Assembly (NCBI GenBank): GCA_025358455.1
Contig: JANYJP010000042.1
Span: 1 to 64,000 of the forward strand
Direction: 5' to 3'
DNA: 64,000 nt
Source of the DNA: Bacteroidales bacterium
Lineage (GTDB): Bacteria; Bacteroidota; Bacteroidia; Bacteroidales; VadinHA17
The number at the start of each line of letters is the position of its first letter. Positions within the stretch are counted from its first letter, which is position 1. Under the pieces are notes generated by a model. It was not told the origin of the DNA. It ran no database searches and was given only the letters and a program-made list of their open reading frames with translations. Of the stretch, positions 60 to 10,298 are shown in pieces. A program made the translations under genes and the position numbers.

Positions 60-146
60 TTACCGCTTTTTTCTCATACTTGGACCCTTCAATTCGATTC
101 TGTATGCAGAGTGAACTAATCTGTCTATAATGGCGTCTGCATTATC
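60..146 (-). pseudogene. istB: C-terminal fragment of IS21-family helper ATPase IstB
   Basis: Read on the minus strand, this frame encodes ADAIIDRLV followed by HSAYRIELKGPSMRKKR and a TAA stop at 62-60. That is the typical C-terminal tail of IS21 IstB proteins. The frame runs into stop codons upstream of about 147, next to the RIT element. The preceding IstB residues reappear on the other side of that element, at 3694-3755. The gene is therefore split and dead. The sequence from 59 to 1 (minus strand) should be the IS21 terminal region, but the window edge cuts it off. No istA is present. Confidence 0.8.
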
Positions 147-165
147 ATAATATTAGCATATTGCA

Positions 166-199
166 GATTATCATCACTTTTTAATTATGCGAAGTAATT
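166..199 (+). repeat. Left terminal inverted repeat of the RIT element
   Basis: These 34 bases are the exact reverse complement of 3660-3693. The inner half contains the 13-mer ATTATGCGAAGTA (184-196), which occurs twice more near the right end. The outer motif ATTATCAT (167-174) is repeated directly at 141-148, just inside the istB junction. Confidence 0.9.
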
Positions 200-317
200 T
201 TTAAAGCTCCCTATTTATCAAACAATTATAATTAATTAGTCTTTTTTTTGTTAGCATAATAATTTACATTGTAATGAGGTGTCCAGTGATTATAAGTTTC
301 ACTAATACAATATTATT

Positions 318-1568
318 ATGCAAAACGATTTCAATTTCGATGACATTAGCTTAAAGGCATACAATTACCTTAAAGAGGAGTTTTTTTATAAGTATGTCAC
401 CCTGCGCCATTATCAAAGCCGATGGCTTCCTGTCAAGGAGTACATGAAAAAGAAAGGCTTAAAATTTATCAGCCCTGTAGTTTGTAATGACTTTTTGCTT
501 GAGCTCTACAAGGGTAGAACCCATGAAGAATTATCAGAAAAGGAGAAATCCATTGAAAAGTCCATTTCAGTACTATGCGAATATTTAGAGAAAGGTTCCG
601 TACATAGGAGATGTAAGGTCAGACATCTGGGTGGGTCTATTGGTCTTCTAATGAAGGATTTTCTTGCTCAAAAGCAATCCCGGCGTTTAAAGCAAATAAC
701 ACTTGAAAAGTTGGAAAGCCATTTGAGCAATTTTAATTTCTGGCTCAATACGAATGGTATTTTCAGTATTAATGATATCAGGCATCATCAAATCATTACT
801 TTTATTAAAAGTCTTGATCCCCATAAGAAAGCTCTCATCCACGACACATTAATGGATTTGCGTGGGTTTTTCCAATTTCTTTTTGAGAAGGGGATCATGC
901 CCACTAATCTATCGACCTTCATTCCAAGAGACAATTATCAGATGCAAGCCAAATTACCTGCCTATTATACAGAAGAAGAAATAGAAAAATTGTTGAAATC
1001 AGTTGACAGAGGGAATATAGTAGGAAAGAGAGACTACGCTATATTAGTACTCGCTGCGTTTCTTGGATTAAGGGTATCCGACATCGCGCATCTCCGGTTC
1101 GAGAACTTACACTGGGATCAGAACACTATCTTTCTCAGGCAGTATAAAACGGGTAAAAATATATCTCTTCCTTTATTGCCGGTAGTCGGGAATGCACTTC
1201 TGGATTATATCCAATACGGTAGGCCCAAGTCTGATGAGCAGTATGTCTTTTTACTTGTGATATCTCCATTTCTTCCTATTAGACCACAAGCCATTGCTGG
1301 CTTGATAAATCGCAGATTTTCCTCCGCTGGGTTAAAATCAACTAACAGGAGACATGGTGGCCATGCCCTCCGCAATAGTCTTGTAAAGGAATTACTTAAC
1401 AATAAGCAGTCGCTACCTGTGATTAGCGAAGTCCTCGGTCACAAGAACACAAGCTCGACCAGACATTACATTCGGATAGATAGCGAATCCCTTAGTCATT
1501 GCGCCTTAGAAGTTCCACTGGTTAATCCGCTTTTTTACAACCAGGAAGGAGGTATGCTATGGCTATAA
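318..1568 (+). CDS. RIT element tyrosine recombinase, first gene
   Basis: A 416-residue tyrosine site-specific recombinase. The first ~210 residues resemble SAM-like core-binding domains. The C-terminal catalytic domain shows the conserved residues: Arg in LGLRVSD (about residue 250), HALR (His-x-x-Arg, about 350), LGHKN (His, about 373) and the nucleophilic Tyr in TRHYIRI (about 384). It is the longest of the trio, as expected for the first RIT gene. Its stop overlaps the start of the second gene by 10 bp, which suggests translational coupling. All catalytic residues are intact, so the protein may be active. Only co-occurrence with the next two genes distinguishes it from a phage integrase. 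Confidence 0.9.
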   Translation: MQNDFNFDDISLKAYNYLKEEFFYKYVTLRHYQSRWLPVKEYMKKKGLKFISPVVCNDFLLELYKGRTHEELSEKEKSIEKSISVLCEYLEKGSVHRRCKVRHLGGSIGLLMKDFLAQKQSRRLKQITLEKLESHLSNFNFWLNTNGIFSINDIRHHQIITFIKSLDPHKKALIHDTLMDLRGFFQFLFEKGIMPTNLSTFIPRDNYQMQAKLPAYYTEEEIEKLLKSVDRGNIVGKRDYAILVLAAFLGLRVSDIAHLRFENLHWDQNTIFLRQYKTGKNISLPLLPVVGNALLDYIQYGRPKSDEQYVFLLVISPFLPIRPQAIAGLINRRFSSAGLKSTNRRHGGHALRNSLVKELLNNKQSLPVISEVLGHKNTSSTRHYIRIDSESLSHCALEVPLVNPLFYNQEGGMLWL

Positions 1569-2554
1569 ATAGTAGATTACTATGGAGTATATATGCTCCA
1601 TATATTTATGACTTTGTAGGTCTGAAAAGAAGTCTTGGATATAAATATGAAGAAGAAGGAAGACTTCTTTATAAGTTCGATCAGTTTATCCTGGAGCAAG
1701 GCCATAACAGCCTTGGTTTAACCAAAGAGATATCTGATAGATGGGCTGCTAGACGCTATAATGAGGCTGAGATTACTATATACAGTAAAGTCAAGGTTGT
1801 GAAACAGATGATGGAATATTTACGTGATCAGGGCATTAAAACTTATGTTCCGCAACTTCCCAAATACCCGGGCTGTACATTTATCCCCTATATCTATTCT
1901 CAGGAGGAGATAAATGCAATTTTTCATGCCTGCGATAGCCTAAGGATGAAATGTAGAAATGTCTATTCCTGTCTATTAATCATGCCCTGTTTGTTAAGGT
2001 TGCTTTATGGAACTGGCATTCGTATCAGCGAGGCTTTATCTCTTCAGAACAAGGATGTAAATCTTAGTGAAAAATACCTGACATTAATAGATACCAAAAA
2101 TGGGAAAGACAGGATGATCCCTATATCTGACTCACTTATGGCTGTCTGCAATGATTATCTGGTAAATCGGGATAAGCTTCCCGTCAGTGGGGTGAAACGG
2201 CAAAACGGTTCATTCTTTGTCTCATTGAATGGTGGCGTTTGTAAACATGATGCAGTACATCGCTGGTTCCGTAAAGTACTTGAAATAGCAGGAATCCCTT
2301 TTACAGGTAACAGAAAAGGGCCCAGAATCCATGATATCCGTCACACCTTCGCTTGTCATTCTTTTCTCAAACTCTCTTATGAAGGTTTAGATCTATATTG
2401 TTCATGGCCTTACTTATCGACCTATCTCGGACATCAGTCGTTGGCATCCACCGAACAATATATAAGACTCACTTCCCAAATGTATCCAGAACTTTTGAGA
2501 GATACCGATGGATTGTATGTAGATATTCTTCCGGATGTTCCATCCACAATGTAA
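1559..2554 (+). CDS. RIT element tyrosine recombinase, second gene
   Basis: A 331-residue tyrosine recombinase. Catalytic signatures are Arg in YGTGIRISEAL (about residue 152), HDIRH (about 260), LGHQS and the Tyr in TEQYIRL (about 302). A strong Shine-Dalgarno-like run, AGGAAGGAGG, lies immediately before the ATG and inside the end of the first gene. This is unusual for Bacteroidota, where such sites are weak. The overlap with the upstream gene and the 8-bp gap to the next gene support one polycistronic mRNA. No frameshift or missing catalytic residue is seen. Confidence 0.9.
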   Translation: MAINSRLLWSIYAPYIYDFVGLKRSLGYKYEEEGRLLYKFDQFILEQGHNSLGLTKEISDRWAARRYNEAEITIYSKVKVVKQMMEYLRDQGIKTYVPQLPKYPGCTFIPYIYSQEEINAIFHACDSLRMKCRNVYSCLLIMPCLLRLLYGTGIRISEALSLQNKDVNLSEKYLTLIDTKNGKDRMIPISDSLMAVCNDYLVNRDKLPVSGVKRQNGSFFVSLNGGVCKHDAVHRWFRKVLEIAGIPFTGNRKGPRIHDIRHTFACHSFLKLSYEGLDLYCSWPYLSTYLGHQSLASTEQYIRLTSQMYPELLRDTDGLYVDILPDVPSTM

Positions 2555-2562
2555 AGACAGCC

Positions 2563-3588
2563 ATGAAACATATAAACGATTTTGTCCGGTTATTATCCGG
2601 CTTTCTGAACCACTACCTGCCTAATGAAAAAGGAGTTAGTGCGAATACGATAAAATCATACAGCTATACCTTTATCCTCTTCATCAAATATTTACATGAT
2701 TACAGGAAGGTACCGGTTACCAGTCTCTCATTCAATCTTATTAATAAGGATCTGGTTGTTGACTTCCTTGACTGGATCCAGGAAAAAAGGGCCTGTTGTG
2801 ATGCTACACGCAATCAACGCTTAGCAGCTATATCTTCCTTTATAAAATATGCCGAATATATGAACCCAAGCCATTTATTTGACTGTCATCAAATATTATC
2901 CATTCCTGTTAAAAAAACAGAAAGTAAGGTTCTTAATTACCTGAATATCGATGGTATGAAACTGCTATTGCAACAACCTGATACTCAGAAAACCAAAGGG
3001 TTCAGGGATCTTGCCCTGTTGTCCCTGATGTATGAAAGTGCCGCAAGGGTTCAGGAAATCATTGATCTGACACCTGCTTCCATATTCATTACAAACAAAC
3101 CATATAGAGTTATCCTGCATGGGAAGGGCAATAAATATAGGTCAATACCTCTCCCCGATAAGCAAGTAACCTTGCTTAGACAATACATGAACCAAAGTAG
3201 CCTTTTAAACAGGGAAAACACGCAAAAACCATTGTTCCAAAATTATCAGGGGCAAAAGATGACACGTAATGGGATAAATAATATCCTTGTTAAATATGTA
3301 AAAATGGCTAACCGCGAAAATCCCTTATTGGTGCCTGGTCATTTGAGTTGCCATTCAATAAGACATACCAAAGCAATGCATTTATTGGAAGCGAAAGTTG
3401 AATTAATGCATATTAGAGACTTTCTGGGACACAAATCAGTATTGACAACAGAAATATATGCTCGTATGAACCCTAAATTTACGTTTGAAGCGGTGAAGAA
3501 CGCATATAAAAACATAACCTCAGAAACTATACCAGCATGGAAGGGTAATAGTGAATTAATGGTAATGCTGCAAAACCTTGCTAAATGA
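2563..3588 (+). CDS. RIT element tyrosine recombinase, third gene
   Basis: A 341-residue recombinase starting at MKHINDF, 8 bp after the second gene stops. The open frame extends upstream to 2398, but that part is the out-of-frame shadow of the second gene. Catalytic residues are present: Arg in ESAARVQEI, His and Arg in HSIRH, His in LGHKS and Tyr in TEIYARM. An N-terminal SAM-like domain (phage_int_SAM type, about residues 10-110) includes NTIKSYSYTF. The three recombinases are clearly divergent from each other, as in other RIT elements, and are thought to act together, although the mechanism is not well worked out. Confidence 0.9.
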   Translation: MKHINDFVRLLSGFLNHYLPNEKGVSANTIKSYSYTFILFIKYLHDYRKVPVTSLSFNLINKDLVVDFLDWIQEKRACCDATRNQRLAAISSFIKYAEYMNPSHLFDCHQILSIPVKKTESKVLNYLNIDGMKLLLQQPDTQKTKGFRDLALLSLMYESAARVQEIIDLTPASIFITNKPYRVILHGKGNKYRSIPLPDKQVTLLRQYMNQSSLLNRENTQKPLFQNYQGQKMTRNGINNILVKYVKMANRENPLLVPGHLSCHSIRHTKAMHLLEAKVELMHIRDFLGHKSVLTTEIYARMNPKFTFEAVKNAYKNITSETIPAWKGNSELMVMLQNLAK

Positions 3589-3596
3589 GGTAAAAT

Positions 3597-3675
3597 ATTA
3601 TGCGAAGTAGTTGCCTGAATAATTAGAGCTAAATCGTTGAGTCTCTATACATAGAGTTTAATTACTTCGCATAAT
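3597..3675. repeat. Internal inverted pair of the RIT 13-mer at the right end
   Basis: The 13-mer ATTATGCGAAGTA occurs in direct orientation at 3597-3609 and inverted at 3663-3675 within the right terminal repeat. The 53-bp spacer holds a small hairpin, CTCTAT-AC-ATAGAG (3643-3656). The left end has only one copy (184-196), so the two termini are asymmetric. These copies are plausible recombinase-binding arms. Confidence 0.65.
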
Positions 3676-3693
3676 TAAAAAGTGATGATAATC
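3660..3693 (-). repeat. Right terminal inverted repeat of the RIT element
   Basis: Exact reverse complement of 166-199 (34 of 34). Identity stops abruptly at 3694 on the outside, where IstB-coding sequence begins, and at 3659 on the inside. Confidence 0.9.
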
Positions 3694-3755
3694 CGCCAGT
3701 GTTGGTTCTGCGTTAAAGTCATACCATTTAAACACAGGAAGCTGATAGGTACTAA
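3694..3755 (-). pseudogene. istB: Internal fragment of IS21 IstB, other side of the RIT insertion
   Basis: The minus-strand frame reads QLPVFKWYD followed by FNAEPTLAD and then enters the RIT terminal repeat. The spacing Q-L-P-V...K-W-Y...E-P-T-x-A-D is the conserved block just upstream of the ADAILDR block in IstB, which here lies at 60-146. Upstream of about 3755 the frame stays open to a stop at 3883, but I recognise no further IstB motifs there, so the fragment is short or degenerate. No other gene is seen between 3589 and 3914. Confidence 0.7.
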
Positions 3756-4202: not shown

Positions 4203-5131
4203 TCTTCTATTTTTTCAACTATTTGCGATATGATATTCTTTATAAGCTGATTGTGATTTGTGAGAGATTTAGAATTTAATGAGTTAAGCCGATGGTACAT
4301 GTATTCAAATTCTTCTGCAAATGATATTTCTGCCTCAACTTCAGATAACCCAGTTCCAATAATACCCAGCATTTCGGATTGAATTATGAAGTAATCATCT
4401 TCCTTAGCAAAAAGGCAACGCAAAGGGTACTTTAAAATGTATTTCTTTGATTTAGTCACTATTACTTCAGGGGCATAATCTAATGAAAACCGTTTCCCAG
4501 AATAAGTATCAATTATTTTTCTATAAGTTTTACCGTCCCGTTTAGAGATTCTGATTTTCCCCACTGCTTCATCAGTTTCAGCCAAGGATTCCACGACCTC
4601 TTTAATTTCAGTTACGAGTTCCTTTTTTACAGCGGACTTAAACCTATGAATCTTATAGATCGGAGTTATTTTTTCATTTACTTCATCGTATTCAACAAAC
4701 ATTGCTGGTGCATTGCCAAACCCATTTACAAATGAGTAAAGATTCTCAACTATGGGATTTCTTTTAGCTGGTTCAGGATATATTTCAGCTATTTTTCCAT
4801 AATTTCCTGTATTTGAGATTTCAACAAGTTTATCGAATTTTTCATTCACGGAATTTCTATGAATCTGCCAATAAATTCCAGTTTTGTTTTCAGCACGAGG
4901 AGTAAACGCAAATTTCGGTACAGCACTTCCTTTAGTGAATCCTGTTAATTCAATTTTGAAGTTATTTAGATCAATAGGCTCAGATGATGGTAAATCAATT
5001 TTTGCCAAAGTCAGAATCAATTCCTGCAAATCCTGAGCGATCTTAACTAATACATCAATTGGGAGAGAGTTATACTTACCCAGCTCGCCACCAATCTCAA
5101 TAAAGGCACCTGTATTTAGATCGATTTTCAC
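4199..5131 (-). CDS. Putative long HicB-like antitoxin with an extra N-terminal domain
   Basis: A 310-residue soluble protein of unrecognised family. The last ~80 residues show a HicB-like pattern: a strand DDYFIIQSEMLGIIGTG, then a helix beginning LSEVEAEISFAEEFEY. This resembles the 'PEL-x-G-x-G-x-T-x-EEA' core of HicB antitoxins. The first ~200 residues (including a PIDVLVKIAQDLQELI helix) match nothing I know. Ordinary HicB proteins are about 70-150 residues, so this would be an enlarged form. Gene order antitoxin-then-toxin with a 4-bp overlap fits a hicBA arrangement. The function is inferred, not established. Confidence 0.45.
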   Translation of the reverse strand: MKIDLNTGAFIEIGGELGKYNSLPIDVLVKIAQDLQELILTLAKIDLPSSEPIDLNNFKIELTGFTKGSAVPKFAFTPRAENKTGIYWQIHRNSVNEKFDKLVEISNTGNYGKIAEIYPEPAKRNPIVENLYSFVNGFGNAPAMFVEYDEVNEKITPIYKIHRFKSAVKKELVTEIKEVVESLAETDEAVGKIRISKRDGKTYRKIIDTYSGKRFSLDYAPEVIVTKSKKYILKYPLRCLFAKEDDYFIIQSEMLGIIGTGLSEVEAEISFAEEFEYMYHRLNSLNSKSLTNHNQLIKNIISQIVEKIEE

Positions 5132-5251
5132 ATATCAAATATAATTAAACTTTAAATACAGTATAGAAATTCTCTATAAACTCCCCATCATTTCAGCCTT
5201 TTCATCAGTTAAAACAGCGACATAATACTGTATTGCGGTTAGACTGTGCTT

Positions 5252-5290
5252 GGTCATTTGGTTCGGAGGTTGTTTGTCTGTCAAATGACC
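5252..5290. repeat. 9-bp perfect inverted repeat
   Basis: GGTCATTTG (5252-5260) pairs with CAAATGACC (5282-5290) around a 21-base loop. It lies between the 310-residue gene and the cupredoxin remnant. It could be a terminator-like hairpin or the end of an old insertion. No oligo-T run follows. Confidence 0.4.
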
Positions 5291-5351
5291 TAATGTGTGA
5301 ATCTCCAGCAATGTCCCTGAATTACTTATTTTACTTCTTATCCACTTTGGC

Positions 5352-5540
5352 AATAAGGACGCTATCGCTCATACTGTTACAAGTGATACTGATCTGTTCA
5401 ATAGCGGAAATATTGCAAGTAACGGAACTTATAGCTACATGTTTTCGACAGCCGGTTCATACCCATACCATTGCAGTATTCATGCTTCTATGAAAGCTAC
5501 AGTTGTAGTTAAAGCAGTTCCTTCAATTCCAGGTTATTAA
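5352..5540 (+). pseudogene. 3' remnant of a plastocyanin-like cupredoxin gene
   Basis: This frame encodes NKDAIAHTVTSD, FNSGNIASNGTYSYMFS, then AGSYPYHCSIHASMKATVVV and a stop. This is the C-terminal half of a type-1 copper protein, with all four ligands in order: His in AHTV, Cys in YHC, His in SIH and Met in ASM. The frame is closed by a TGA at 5298-5300, and residues before NKD do not resemble the expected TVTWT strand. The 5' half and signal peptide appear lost or frameshifted. From 5132 to 5351 no other gene is seen apart from the inverted repeat. Confidence 0.65.
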
Positions 5541-5541
5541 G

Positions 5542-6132
5542 TCAAATATTCATCTTTTTTATATACTCATCGACCGTAATGCACGGAATGCCAATGTTTT
5601 GGATATCTGTAATATTAGCATCGGCAATTTGTTTGCTTGCTGCAGAAGTGGCATCTTTTATAACAGTAACATTATAGCCATATGAAACAGCATCGAAAGC
5701 TGTAGCCCTGATACAATTTGGAAATTGAGTGCCGCATATTGCAATAGCGGTAATCCCAAGTCTTCGTAACATAAAATCAAGTTCTGTATTCATAAAAGCA
5801 CTGAACCGGTTTTTAATGATTACATATTCACCCTCTGCCGGCTTTAATTTTTCAACAATTTTGCATCCGTCTGTCCCCGGAACAACAATTTTCCTGCTTT
5901 TTATAAAGCTCTCATAACGGGTAATTTCTACATCACTGCCATCACTCCTGTATTCTCTTATTACATGAAATACCGGCTCCTTTATCAGCCGGTAATAATC
6001 CAGAAGTTTTCTGATAGAGTCTATGCTATCATATGCCCCATATACAAATGCCGGTGCTCCGGACAGTACAAAATCATTTTGCATGTCAATTATTAAAAGA
6101 GCTAAACGGTGCCTGACTATTGTTGTATTCAT
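5542..6132 (-). CDS. Isochorismatase-family cysteine hydrolase
   Basis: A 196-residue cytoplasmic alpha/beta hydrolase of the isochorismatase/nicotinamidase superfamily. The triad is visible: Asp in IIDMQNDF (about residue 17), Lys in IIKNRFSAF (about 107) and Cys in TQFPNCIRATAFDA (about 140). The cis-peptide-type segment before the Cys is also conserved. Length is normal for the family. The substrate (nicotinamide, isochorismate, N-carbamoyl compounds and others) cannot be told from sequence alone. It starts with ATG at 6132, has no operon partner, and ends immediately after the cupredoxin remnant. Confidence 0.85.
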   Translation of the reverse strand: MNTTIVRHRLALLIIDMQNDFVLSGAPAFVYGAYDSIDSIRKLLDYYRLIKEPVFHVIREYRSDGSDVEITRYESFIKSRKIVVPGTDGCKIVEKLKPAEGEYVIIKNRFSAFMNTELDFMLRRLGITAIAICGTQFPNCIRATAFDAVSYGYNVTVIKDATSAASKQIADANITDIQNIGIPCITVDEYIKKMNI

Positions 6133-6202
6133 ACTAATACTGTTATATATTCAGAGAGAATTTAACACAAGTTAGGCAAAATCGGGTAAAAAGGAACCAA
6201 AA

Positions 6203-8395
6203 CTATTTTAAGTAATCGTTAAAATAACCTGAAATCTTATTAAAAAGATGCACCCTTGAGTTGCCTGCCATGTTATGCTCAGCTCCGGGATACACAAAAT
6301 AATCAACCTGTTTGCCCTGTTTGATGCACTCATCCAGAAAAGTCAGACTGTTTTGCCAGACAACTGTGTTGTCGTTGGTTCCATGGATAATCAATAATTT
6401 TCCACTGAGATTTCCTGCATAATTTAATAAAGATGCTTTTTTATACCCTTCCGGGTTTTGCATGGGAGTGTCCATATATCGTTCGCCATACATTACTTCG
6501 TACCATTTCCAGTCGATAACCGGACCGCCGGCACAGGCGACTTTAAAAACGCCGGGATTACGAAGCATAAGTGATACAGTCATAAATCCACCATAACTCC
6601 ATCCATCCACTCCTATTCGTGTAGTATCCACATAATCAAGTGATTTAAGATAGCTTACACCGGTCATCTGGTCGGCCATCTCTTTTTCGCCAACCTGTCT
6701 GTGAATGATGCTTTCGAACTCAAAACCCCGGTTAGATGAACCCCGGTTGTCGAGAGTGAAAATCACATAGCCCTGCTGTGCCATGAAATTCAGCCAGAAC
6801 CCGGCACCTCCGGTCCAGGTATTATTTATCATCTGGGCATGAGGTCCGCCATAGACATAAATTAATACCGGATATTTTTTTGCCGGATTGAAATCAACAG
6901 GCTTTATCAAACGGCAATAAAGGTCAGTGTGTCTATCATCAGCTTTTATTTTGAAAATCGACATTTCACCGATTTTGTAATCCTTGTAAGGATTTTCATC
7001 TTCTCTGAGTGTTGCAAGTTTTGTTCCCTTCTGGTCAATCAAATAATAAGCCCGGGCCATTTTTGTGCTGCTGAAAATATCAATAAAATAGTTCGTGCTT
7101 TTTGACGCCAGCATCTGGTGTGTTCCTTCGGTGTTTGTTATCCGTTCTGTTTTCCCGGTCTTAAGTGCAGTTTTATACAGTTGTCTTTCAATCGGGCTAT
7201 CCATTGTTGATTCATAAAAAACTGAATTTCCCTGAGGATCTGCATCTAAAAGGGCTGTCACTTCCCACTCGCCATGCGTGATTTGCTTAATCATTTTCCC
7301 TCCGGTGTCATAAAGAAAAAGATGATTCCAGCCATCCCTCCGGCTTTGCCAGATAAATTTTGACGGATCTGACTTAATGAAATACAAACCATGCATTGGT
7401 TCTACATACCGATCGTTTCTTTCTTCAAATAAAGTCTTTACTAAATTCCCGGTATTGCATTCATATTTATTCATCTCGAGATGATTCTGGTCGCGGTTCA
7501 GAATGCCGGCATAAATGAATCTGCCTGAAGGATCCCAGCTTACTGAGGTAATATATTGGTTTTCAGGACCTGCCGTTTGAATATAAACGATTTCATTCAG
7601 ATCAGGATTAAAAATTCCCAGCTCAACCTTCTGACTTTTCATGCCTGCCATCGGATATTTTATTGGTGCGGCATTGGCAATACGGTTGAATATATCAACC
7701 AGAGGATAATCAGCTACCTCACTTTGATCTGTTCTGTAGAAGGCCAGTAACTTCCCGTCCGGTGACCAGAATGAACCTGCATCAATCCCAAATTCATTCC
7801 GCGACGGAATCTGCCCATAAAGTATGTTCTCGTTTTTTTCATCAGTAACCTGAATGGCTTCCCCATTAATAACTACAAACAGGTTGTTTTTGATAGTATA
7901 GGCAACATGCAGGTTCTTTTCATCAATTGTTATATTCTCTCCATCCTTATCAAATTCATTGGCTTTTACCAGAGTTGACCCAGCGAAATCATACAAAAAT
8001 ACTTTAGCCTTATCAATATAATACAACCGGTAATTGTCCAACCAGTTTAAACCCGGGAAGTGCCTGAGCTCATCCTGTTTTAAATTTTTCAGTTTTAAAT
8101 TCAGGTCCGTCAGGGTCAGAATTGTATCAGCTCTATTCTGATCTGCCGCTGCTTTCTGGATAAGGTTATCTTTTTCAACATAAGTAAATGCATCCATATT
8201 GCCTCGCCAGGCAAGCCGGGTAATAGCTTTAGGTAATAATTCCCTGTTAAGGTAATCACCGGCTTTAAAAAGCTTGTCCTGTGCCTGCAAATTTACTGCG
8301 CCGGATAAAATGAACAACATTCCAATAACACGTGCAGTCCAATTACTGTTTTTTATAGAAGTTCCTCCCTGTGAAATATTTGTAGTCTCATGCAT
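6203..8395 (-). CDS. S9 family (DPP-IV-like) serine peptidase
   Basis: A 730-residue exported prolyl-oligopeptidase-family enzyme. An N-terminal hydrophobic signal (RVIGMLFILSGAVNLQAQ) directs it to the periplasm. Residues ~50-480 form the DPP-IV N-terminal beta-propeller (repeated WSPDGK, WDPSGRF-type blades). The C-terminal alpha/beta hydrolase has YVYGGPHAQ, the nucleophile Ser in GWSYGGFM (about 599), Asp in HGTNDNTVVW and His in AEHNM. It should release dipeptides from peptide N-termini, preferring Pro or Ala at position two. The ATG at 8395 gives a longer-than-usual n-region, and an internal Met just before the hydrophobic core is an alternative start. It appears monocistronic. Confidence 0.9.
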   Translation of the reverse strand: MHETTNISQGGTSIKNSNWTARVIGMLFILSGAVNLQAQDKLFKAGDYLNRELLPKAITRLAWRGNMDAFTYVEKDNLIQKAAADQNRADTILTLTDLNLKLKNLKQDELRHFPGLNWLDNYRLYYIDKAKVFLYDFAGSTLVKANEFDKDGENITIDEKNLHVAYTIKNNLFVVINGEAIQVTDEKNENILYGQIPSRNEFGIDAGSFWSPDGKLLAFYRTDQSEVADYPLVDIFNRIANAAPIKYPMAGMKSQKVELGIFNPDLNEIVYIQTAGPENQYITSVSWDPSGRFIYAGILNRDQNHLEMNKYECNTGNLVKTLFEERNDRYVEPMHGLYFIKSDPSKFIWQSRRDGWNHLFLYDTGGKMIKQITHGEWEVTALLDADPQGNSVFYESTMDSPIERQLYKTALKTGKTERITNTEGTHQMLASKSTNYFIDIFSSTKMARAYYLIDQKGTKLATLREDENPYKDYKIGEMSIFKIKADDRHTDLYCRLIKPVDFNPAKKYPVLIYVYGGPHAQMINNTWTGGAGFWLNFMAQQGYVIFTLDNRGSSNRGFEFESIIHRQVGEKEMADQMTGVSYLKSLDYVDTTRIGVDGWSYGGFMTVSLMLRNPGVFKVACAGGPVIDWKWYEVMYGERYMDTPMQNPEGYKKASLLNYAGNLSGKLLIIHGTNDNTVVWQNSLTFLDECIKQGKQVDYFVYPGAEHNMAGNSRVHLFNKISGYFNDYLK

Positions 8396-8421
8396 GGTTT
8401 TTTTGTATCAATTATATAATC

Positions 8422-8429
8422 TAACTTTG
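8422..8429 (+). promoter_or_regulatory. Bacteroidota -7 element (TAACTTTG)
   Basis: It matches TAnnTTTG, with TTG at 8403-8405 as a -33 candidate 16 bp upstream. It lies 37 bp before the ATG of the small exported protein at 8466. Confidence 0.6.
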
Positions 8430-8465
8430 CGACAATGAACGATAATAATCTTAATTTTTAAAATT

Positions 8466-8696
8466 ATGAAGAAGATTGTTGGTCTTATAATATTGTTCCT
8501 GCTTGCTTTCTCCTTAAATAGTTTTTCAATTGATAAGCCTCACAAAAAACCACAGAGCGCCAAAATAGAGCGATCGGGTAAACATAATGCCAAATCAGGG
8601 ATTAAACCCCGAAGCAAAGGATCCAGGAAATCAATGCATAAACCGAAAGTAAATCGACAGAGCCGTAAAATATCGAACAATATGTTTAAACTCTGA
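8466..8696 (+). CDS. Small basic exported protein
   Basis: A 76-residue protein not recognised as any family. It has a clear signal peptide (KKIVGLIILFLLAFSLNSFS). The mature part of about 55 residues is extremely rich in Lys, Arg, Ser and His (KPHKKPQ, KPRSKGSRKS, KPKVNRQSRK) and has no hydrophobic core, so it is probably disordered and polycationic. A good phylum-type promoter supports expression. It is flanked by genes on the opposite strand, so it is monocistronic. Possible roles include binding of nucleic acid or polyanionic surface polymers, but this is speculation. Confidence 0.65.
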   Translation: MKKIVGLIILFLLAFSLNSFSIDKPHKKPQSAKIERSGKHNAKSGIKPRSKGSRKSMHKPKVNRQSRKISNNMFKL

Positions 8697-8723
8697 CGTC
8701 AAAAGAGGTTTAATGGATAATAG

Positions 8724-10298
8724 CTATTTTACACCTCCCCATGGAACTAATTTCGATTCAAAATAATCTATCTCCATTGCTTTAAACCGATTACCATGTT
8801 TTGCCAGCCTCCCTTTATATTCATCCCAGTTTCTTAAAGGGGAGGCAGTCCATCCTATTTCAGCTATTCCGGGAAGCCGGGGGAAAACCATATATTCAAT
8901 ATCATTCATATTCGTTATAGTCTCTGTCCATAATGCAGCTTCAACTCCAAGTACATTTTCCTTTTTCACTCCGGGGATATATGTAGCCGGATCCCAGTTA
9001 TAAGCGCTATCCAGCTCAATATAGGCAGCCCAGTGCAATCCCACCTTCGTTGACTTATCATACTGCATGTCGAGGTAAGCTTTAATTGACGGAGACATAA
9101 TGATTTTTGCGCCCTGGGCAACTGCAGCATTAGCATTTTTAACATTCGCCCAATGCTGTGCAAATGAGTTAGGTTTGATCGTAGCTGCTGAGATATCGTC
9201 CCATCCGATAATCTGTTTCCCGTGAGAGGCAACTATCTCCTGTACTTTATTTATAAATGGAATATAATCTTCGGGTTTTGTTGAGTGTGATTCATCGCCT
9301 CCGATATGAATGTAAGGCCCGGGAGTTAAAGCAGCCAGTTCTCTTACCACATCATCAATAAACTTGTAAGTGACATCTTTTGTTGTGCATAAAGTGCTGA
9401 ATCCCACTTCTATTCCGGTGTAGAGTTCAGTTGCTTTACCATTGCAGTTCAATTCAGCATACGAAGCAAGAGCTGCATTAGTGTGACCCGGCATATCAAT
9501 TTCCGGAACAATAGTTATATAACGTTCCATAGCATATTTAACAATATCTGAATATTGATCCTGCGTATAATATCCCCCATTACCTCCGTCTACCTGTGTG
9601 CTGCCACCGTGAGTTGCAAGGTTTGGCCACGATTTAATTTCAATCCTCCAACCCTGATCGTCAGAAAGATGCAGGTGCAAAACATTTATTTTATAATAGG
9701 ATATTAAATCTATAAAACGTTTGACGTCGCTGACTCCAAAAAAATGTCTCGAAACATCCAGCATGACTCCTCTGTAAGAATAATCAGGATAGTCTTTAAT
9801 GGTGCCTGTAGCAATTTCCCAGGGTCCTTCCTGTTTGGCAGAAAGCTCAATCTTAGCAGGCAAAATCTGTCTGATCGTCTGAATTCCCCTGAATAATCCT
9901 GCCGGACTGCCGGCTGAAAGTATTAAAAGGTTTTTTGAAATTACCAGTTCATAACTTTCATCACCCTGCTTAGTGTCTCCTGACAGAGTAAGATAAATGC
10001 CCGCCTTAGGCTCACTGGCTACTGATTTAACTTCAATGTTTAATCCTGTTGCAGGTTTTAACCTGCCAGCCAGATACTGACCAATTTGTTTTACTTCTTC
10101 AGATTCCCCCTGGTAAAAAATTCCGGTTCCGTCGTTTAGAGTAAAATTATCCCCTGTCGCAGTTATTGAAACCGGTTTTGGAATAATGCTCTCTTTGGAA
10201 AGATCCGTTGGTGTTTTTGCCGTGCATGATATCTGCAATATCAGCATGACATATGCAATTATTGTTATTGCCGTCAGGTTTTGTTTTTTATTGATCAT
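8724..10298 (-). CDS. Beta-N-acetylhexosaminidase, GH20 lipoprotein
   Basis: A 524-residue glycoside hydrolase family 20 enzyme that removes terminal GlcNAc or GalNAc. The N-terminus is a lipoprotein signal (lipobox LQISC, about residue 25), placing it in the periplasm or outer membrane. A GH20b-type N-terminal domain (about 35-170) precedes the TIM barrel. The barrel shows YRGVMLDVSRHFF, HLHLSDDQGWRIEI, PEIDMPGHTNAAL and the catalytic Asp-Glu pair in HIGGDES (about 333). The substrate-assisted mechanism uses that pair. Length is on the short side but complete. It is transcribed away from pdxH. Confidence 0.93.
   Translation of the reverse strand: MINKKQNLTAITIIAYVMLILQISCTAKTPTDLSKESIIPKPVSITATGDNFTLNDGTGIFYQGESEEVKQIGQYLAGRLKPATGLNIEVKSVASEPKAGIYLTLSGDTKQGDESYELVISKNLLILSAGSPAGLFRGIQTIRQILPAKIELSAKQEGPWEIATGTIKDYPDYSYRGVMLDVSRHFFGVSDVKRFIDLISYYKINVLHLHLSDDQGWRIEIKSWPNLATHGGSTQVDGGNGGYYTQDQYSDIVKYAMERYITIVPEIDMPGHTNAALASYAELNCNGKATELYTGIEVGFSTLCTTKDVTYKFIDDVVRELAALTPGPYIHIGGDESHSTKPEDYIPFINKVQEIVASHGKQIIGWDDISAATIKPNSFAQHWANVKNANAAVAQGAKIIMSPSIKAYLDMQYDKSTKVGLHWAAYIELDSAYNWDPATYIPGVKKENVLGVEAALWTETITNMNDIEYMVFPRLPGIAEIGWTASPLRNWDEYKGRLAKHGNRFKAMEIDYFESKLVPWGGVK

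Follow-up and report, generated by a model that had tools for sequence, protein, structure and literature searches.

How a recombinase in trio (RIT) element came to lie inside an istB gene, and by what steps such an element moves, is the question raised by the beginning of the window, by which we mean the whole 64,000-nucleotide stretch of a Bacteroidales bacterium analysed here (contig JANYJP010000042.1, positions 1 to 64,000). RITs have been described as elements of about 3.5 kb with 34-bp or 28-9 bp inverted repeats and overlapping palindromic sequence, inserted in IS66 tnpA, in the transposase gene of a Tn6049-related transposon and in radC, and in the portions of these reports considered here their mobility stands without experimental proof (PMC3414803, PMC2864759, PMC10214605). 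A comparison table from 2023 enters the target specificity, empty site and movement of RITs as not tested (PMC10214605). The best explanation for the window and its relatives, which we hold with good confidence, is that a circular form carrying a 20-bp palindromic core integrates at one edge of that core; in the window this probably happened at the conserved (I/L)-A-D-A codons of istB.

The initial annotation, made from the window alone, had described a RIT caught in istB, and this identification is borne out by three intact recombinase genes, perfect 34-nt repeats, a match to NCBIfam NF038214, an alignment with the istB gene of locus L020 and a comparison with intact istB genes (L numbers mark the loci compared and G numbers the genomes). 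The junctions between element and target are made up as follows:

60-135, minus strand: istB C-side of the target, ending in ...DAIIDRLVHSAYRIELKGPSMRKKR, with the stop codon at 60-62; assigned by the NF038214 match and the intact-istB comparison
136-141, no strand: outer core-side spacer, TCTGCA on the plus strand and TGCAGA on the istB strand, read as element-borne
142-161, no strand: imperfect palindromic core of 20 bp, TTATCATAATATTAGCATAT, with 7/10 pairs, or 13/16 when both spacers are included
162-167, no strand: inner spacer from the core to the left terminal repeat, TGCAGA
168-199, plus strand: left terminal repeat, with outer arm TTATCATCAC at 168-177, 7 bp, and inner arm TTATGCGAAG at 185-194
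3660-3691, minus strand: right terminal repeat, its outer arm beginning at 3691 on the minus strand
3692-3697, no strand: spacer of the core-less junction, GGCGGA on the minus strand, taken to be native to the target
3698-3755, minus strand: istB N-side remnant, QLPVFKWYDFNAEPTL, with istB identity lost beyond about 60 bp

The ends of the element form an inverted repeat pair of 37 nt at 97% (163-199 and 3660-3696), within which 34 nt are perfect (166-199 and 3660-3693). Within a terminal repeat, two direct motifs are spaced 17 bp apart and in most copies have the form TWATNNNNNN-7 bp-TWATGNNNNN, and the core consists of two arms of this same motif placed back to back (TTATGNAAAGCTTTNCATAA in several Bacteroidota copies). 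At either core edge the succession of arm, 6 bp and arm looks like an ordinary tyrosine-recombinase site. At the right end the outer arm is followed directly by GGCGGA (3697-3692) and then by istB, with no core. The window core occupies the same place as the perfect core of G775, and the segment 136-167 pairs at 13/16, a value of at least 13 being reached by only two of the 63,969 32-mers of the window, itself included. G775, which is represented by L021 and L051 with contig ends overlapping over 118 bp at 99%, has the layout of the window: a perfect 20-bp core, TTATGCGAATATTCGCATAA, lies next to the C-side of istB, and a long N-side stretch of istB is joined directly. The initial annotation had thus placed the right junction nearly correctly and the left one wrongly, having missed the 20-bp core and its two 6-bp spacers (136-167).

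The left istB block comprises the last 25-26 IstB residues (NF038214, E 1.1e-7, profile positions 207-231 of 232), and the target Ala codon with two bases of the Asp codon lies in the spacer 136-141. The right flank encodes about 18 residues; intact istB genes have them immediately ahead of the C-terminal block. Taken alone, this flank matches no NCBIfam family at E 1, and with the L020 istB it aligns at a tblastn E of 1.5e-9 over a stretch that includes RIT-end residues common to L020. That the two blocks are neighbors in intact proteins, as had been proposed, is seen in the intact istB genes L069 and L071, which run unbroken across the junction as ...GE(S/K)TIADAIMDR.... The joined 42-aa peptide also aligns over the junction with IS5376 IstB structures at E 0.007-0.015, values that belong to a short query for which the unrelated GAL80 scores 0.15. 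Against the closest istB compared (L051), the N-side agrees at 18/30 and 20/30 positions in the first two 30-bp blocks and at background level afterwards. Because istB similarity is lost about 60 bp beyond the right junction, the host gene survives only as a remnant: the insertion in istB stands, while the notion of a simply interrupted gene does not, only about 42 IstB residues being left in the window. A PF01695 search found no intact istB in the genome itself, with two weak matches elsewhere. Window base 1 is the contig end and lies just past istB, so the 3' side of the IS21 element cannot be traced. Positions 1-60 resemble an IS21 3' end.

We propose a circular form whose two terminal repeats would be linked through the 20-bp palindromic core, with 6 bp on either side of it. 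Either core edge would then offer a complete tyrosine-recombinase site, with a repeat arm and a core arm inverted around a 6-bp spacer. The recombinases would pair with these arms, excision would proceed by copying or otherwise, and one core edge would recombine with the target by tyrosine recombination. In the new insertion, one end would retain the core and the other would join the target directly; the core-less junction would keep the 6 bp of the target, and the core side would receive the 6 bp that the element carried from an earlier site. Since the circle junction would be near-palindromic, the element may sit either way round without the core changing its side of the target.

The origin of the spacers can be followed on plasmids of Pseudosulfitobacter sp. 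DSM 107133, where four copies (L065-L068) break strawberry-notch-type genes. Joined flanks were searched for L065, L066 and L067, not for L068, and match uninterrupted genes in 114, 24 and 79 records, respectively, with at least 80% covered in 102, 22 and 78; the 31 matches listed are each a single piece. Eight empty sites were compared. Those of L065 carry CAGATC in 3/3 cases and those of L066 carry GCCATC in 2/3, in each case the 6 bp of the core-less junction, and for L067 both junction spacers are CGGACG, as are 2/2 empty sites, so that the 6 bp of the core-less junction are present in 7/8 empty sites overall. CGGACG, the foreign spacer of L066 and L065, is identical to the 6 bp native to the L067/L068-type site, the inner spacer of L065 (GATGGC) is the target spacer of L066, and the core-side spacer of L066 is the target spacer of L067. 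These sequences indicate that the 6 bp of the target stay at the core-less junction and that the core side carries 6 bp of an earlier site, and the shared spacers would give a jump order of L067/L068, L066 and L065. That the presumed donor sites have kept their element may point to copying or to spread from plasmid to plasmid. By extension of the same rule, the target spacer of the window istB would be GGCGGA, and TGCAGA would have been brought by the element. TGCAGA is also the spacer at istB in L020 (left) and in L051, which fits an earlier home of the element in another istB.

Six copies in Salipiger profundus, which share a single insertion site within IS110 or IS110-like genes, show that insertion is independent of orientation. 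Five have the core on the left and one inverted copy (L059) has it on the right; the side of the target on which the core lies is constant in 6/6, and the asymmetric center of the core is fixed relative to the element. Joined Salipiger flanks retrieved no uninterrupted IS110 gene, only their own copy and partial Bradyrhizobium matches, and L064 shows a difference between GTTAAG and GTGAAG. The 11-kb plasmid pTPRO8 of Salipiger (NZ_CP014804.1, L062) consists mostly of a pair of inverted RIT copies that carry IS110 halves.

The one-core anatomy recurs in RITs of Bacteroidota, Bacillota, Actinomycetota and Pseudomonadota, and the recombinase trio of pHG1 (L056) has the same core and spacers. In a first survey 25 of 57 element ends were core ends, with the core always 6 bp from the terminal arm. 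Sixteen of these have at least 8/10 pairs, for which the chance rate among 20-mers is 0.076%; the other nine were called by eye from the outer arms (the window with 7 pairs, L053 and six Salipiger ends with 6 pairs each, and L033, whose 19-bp core is outside the script's register). None of the remaining 32 ends exceeds 6 pairs at the core position, and two reach 6; the survey row for the right end of L030 came from the wrong one of two matches, the correct end having no core. Beside the core, the two spacers are exact reverse complements in 18/25 cases. The side on which the core stands varies by target, being the C-side in the window istB and the N-side in IS110. Both ends are readable in 31 copies (25 from the first survey and six later), of which 23 have one core, five none and three two; the copies are not independent, as Salipiger contributes six and Pseudosulfitobacter four. 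The survey left out the right ends of L024, L026 and L054, the left ends of L027, L052, L055, L061, L081, L082 and L085, and the second copy of L080, and in L022 the contig ends within both repeats, leaving no flanks.

A prediction fixed in advance was then applied to 11 newly fetched copies, one named match having been swapped for another. The terminal repeat was located at one end at least in 10/11 (in L085 by eye, at one end). The best palindrome lies at offset 6 in 8/8 new core ends and in 0/9 of the core-less ends scanned, among them the right end of L030; the latter have at most 7 pairs, a value found at the right end of L086 at offset 17. Six new copies are readable at both ends, with one core in L083, L086 and L088, two in L087 and L089, and none in L084, so that simple insertions have one core in 3/3 cases. 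When the core and one spacer are removed, an open frame runs across the joint in five one-core copies (L028, L056, L083, L086 and L088), and the joined flanks of L083 resemble a reverse transcriptase, with the joint falling at TPQGGVISPL.

Several observations weigh against integration of a core-bearing circle. No circle or excision has been observed. A third empty relative of the L066 site (L077) carries GGAGTC, which is neither spacer, and a search of 60 genomes with the L020 istB returned three relatives and no empty version of the window istB from which the origin of the window spacer might be read. The window core is imperfect, its 7/10 pairs being reached by 0.55% of window 20-mers, and the Salipiger cores pair at the outer arms only. 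In 7/25 core ends (G775, L025, L028, L029, L033, L052 and L065) the flanking spacers are not exact reverse complements, a departure that the model permits without requiring it. Close to the right end of L085 there is a longer inverted repeat, but the place predicted for the core is without one. Finally, 8/31 copies depart from exactly one core, with none in L020, L030, L050, L084 and the decayed L031 and two in L023, L087 and L089; three of them (L084, L087 and L089), found among the six new copies, have same-side halves that the prediction did not foresee.

Seven of the eight carry, on their two flanks, one and the same side of related genes; the remaining copy, L031, is decayed, with stops in RitA. 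If the core accompanies a particular side of its target, copies with two such halves are expected to have zero or two cores. The identity of the inverted flank DNA ranges from no match (L050) through 67% (L020) to as much as 99% (L089), and these differing values argue for the joining of paralogous copies, either by recombination between RITs or by repeated use of the ends. L020, L023, L030 and L050 come from draft genomes, in which misassembly through similar RITs is possible; L084 and L087 are plasmid records titled complete, and the title of L089 does not include that statement. In L020 (JABMPI010000100.1) the RIT is flanked on both sides by the N-parts of two different istB genes, tail-to-tail, and L050 from the same metagenome-assembled genome (MAG) has a like arrangement with two radC-like genes. 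L089 (NZ_OW485603.1) has a core at both ends, and an annotated IS1595 transposase gene separates its left end from the first recombinase gene; its flanks form a 1040-bp inverted repeat at 99%, each half including a UPF0149 gene, and the duplication extends to the locus edge. On the contig of L030 (G372:C7) three PcfK-like gene ends adjoin RIT ends, and the genome has three RitB-like matches. L080 contains, at 4515-10135, two truncated RIT remnants fused head-to-head between two istB pieces.

Exchanges of this kind bear on the window itself, where the two istB pieces could stem from different istB copies that were joined by recombination between RIT copies, with no single insertion at this site. 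The seven same-side-half elements, together with L062a of Salipiger, which joins the sides of two different IS110 genes, make it appear that such exchanges do occur, and the N-side of the window istB is truncated. On the other hand, one core with two complementary halves is the outcome of a single insertion, and G775 has the same layout; we therefore consider this origin unlikely. A target-site duplication, or simple cut-and-paste with the ends of the 34-bp repeats as boundaries, is considerably less probable still. GCNGA occurs on both istB sides, and the initial annotation, from GCGG against GCAG, had suggested a shared crossover or duplication of 4-5 bp; the shared stretch survives as a 6-bp spacer, and the duplication was rejected because the two spacers differ (GGCGGA and TGCAGA in the window), just as the core-side 6 bp of L065 and L066 differ from those of the empty sites compared. 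Tyrosine recombinases are not known to make such target duplications. It is hardly credible that the core is part of the target and that RITs insert beside existing palindromes: the core does lie outside the terminal repeats, mostly on one side only, and palindromic sequence overlapping RIT inverted repeats is mentioned in the relevant part of PMC3414803, but we rejected this reading because the empty sites compared (the istB genes L069 and L071 and eight strawberry-notch genes) have no core, and the same core occurs at either end of identical Salipiger RITs (L059 versus the other five) in fixed orientation relative to the element.

The element of the window is a RIT of known kind, with the mechanism proposed here, and is probably complete and functional. 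Between its terminal repeats it carries:

250-259, minus strand: subterminal inverted copy of the motif at the left end, GTTAGCATAA on the plus strand; candidate accessory recombinase site
318-1568, plus strand: ritA-like tyrosine recombinase gene, 416 aa, with R252, HALR at 349-352 and LGH at 373-375
1559-2554, plus strand: ritB-like tyrosine recombinase gene, 331 aa, with R155, HDIR at 258-261 and LGH at 290-292
2563-3588, plus strand: ritC-like tyrosine recombinase gene, 341 aa, with R162, HSIR at 264-267 and LGH at 288-290
3598-3607, plus strand: subterminal inverted copy of the motif at the right end, TTATGCGAAG; likewise a candidate accessory site

All three proteins have integrase domains, and their genes are intact and lie on one strand in the order A-B-C. 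The R-HxxR-H-Y catalytic set is kept in each, R, HxxR and LGH having been located by motif search and the catalytic Tyr by eye. From outer arm to outer arm (168-3691) the element measures 3524 bp, or about 3.55 kb with core and spacers added. The three genes are the only sizeable open reading frames between the repeats; the one other frame of at least 60 aa encodes 65 aa and lies inside ritA on the opposite strand.

RitA occurs at 79-82% identity in three MAG records and at 35-44% in nine other genomes among 393 of the order, and class- and phylum-wide searches (RitA at 1e-70, RitC at 1e-50) returned only the genome itself and G697. With the third protein alone, tblastn gave matches in 501 plasmid records, not all of which need be RITs. 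A search of the genome itself found the RIT DNA once and no second copy. Two papers, in the parts considered, place RITs on pHG1 of Cupriavidus necator H16, and window RitA and RitC, the two proteins compared there, match the first and third genes of that trio. Among other istB insertions, L025 breaks the gene near residue 120 and L026 at the Walker A motif (by eye). Further targets are istA, IS66 and IS110 transposases, a radC-like gene, PcfK, PcfJ, exbD, HU, tyrosine recombinases, a group II intron reverse transcriptase and the strawberry-notch helicase gene. Targets were named by eye for L026, L027, L029-L031, L033, L050, L052-L058, L061, L064, L083, L084, L086 and L089, and otherwise from annotation or profile.

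The window element resembles the RITs described by Van Houdt (2009 and 2012) in its three adjacent same-strand tyrosine recombinases, its size of about 3.5 kb, its 34-bp repeats and a target gene that itself belongs to a mobile element. The genes of RITs are reported to overlap by four to eight bp (PMC3414803); in the window ritA and ritB overlap by 10 bp and ritB and ritC are separated by an 8-bp gap; istB as a target also differs. RitA is described with two core-binding domains and RitC with an extra C-terminal helix (PMC8138268); in window RitA, Pfam recognizes a single SAM-like domain at 121-191, behind a long N-terminus. The one-sided 20-bp core with its 6-bp spacers does not appear in the portions of the RIT descriptions compared, a set outside which Ricker 2013 falls; the 2012 description mentions only a 28-9 bp inverted repeat with palindromic sequence overlapping it. 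The closest functional likeness is to SE elements, which have 6 bp of donor flank on one side and 6 bp of target on the other (PMC10214605). However, SE and GInt elements have four conserved genes, including Srap/GinD and Tfp/GinC, and the window element only its three recombinase genes; a palindromic core is not described for SE and GInt in the portions considered, and "palindrom" is missing from the main text of PMC10214605. The same paper mentions a heteroduplex spacer (PMC10214605). SE and GInt elements with Tn554, and the coupling sequences of Tn916-type elements, are the nearest known systems besides RITs themselves. In Tn916, short spacers from earlier flanks travel with the circle, and Int and Xis act there at one joint site, as opposed to the two sites sharing a core in the RIT model.

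Taken together as one proposal, for which we see about equal grounds for and against, RITs may follow a separate transposition design with two back-to-back sites that share a 20-bp core and are usable at either edge; from one jump to the next the core would shuttle between the two ends, and the order of past homes would be recorded in the 6-bp spacers. From the anatomy one can predict, to the base, how the circle is joined, which spacer is crossed over and what a new jump leaves behind, and the mechanism is therefore testable. Core and spacers also provide a rule for marking RIT ends, and the order of jumps is readable where spacers differ. If the proposal is true, the same-side-half elements, which under it would be products of recombinase action at both edges, would make RITs drivers of the inverted joining of paralogous genes.

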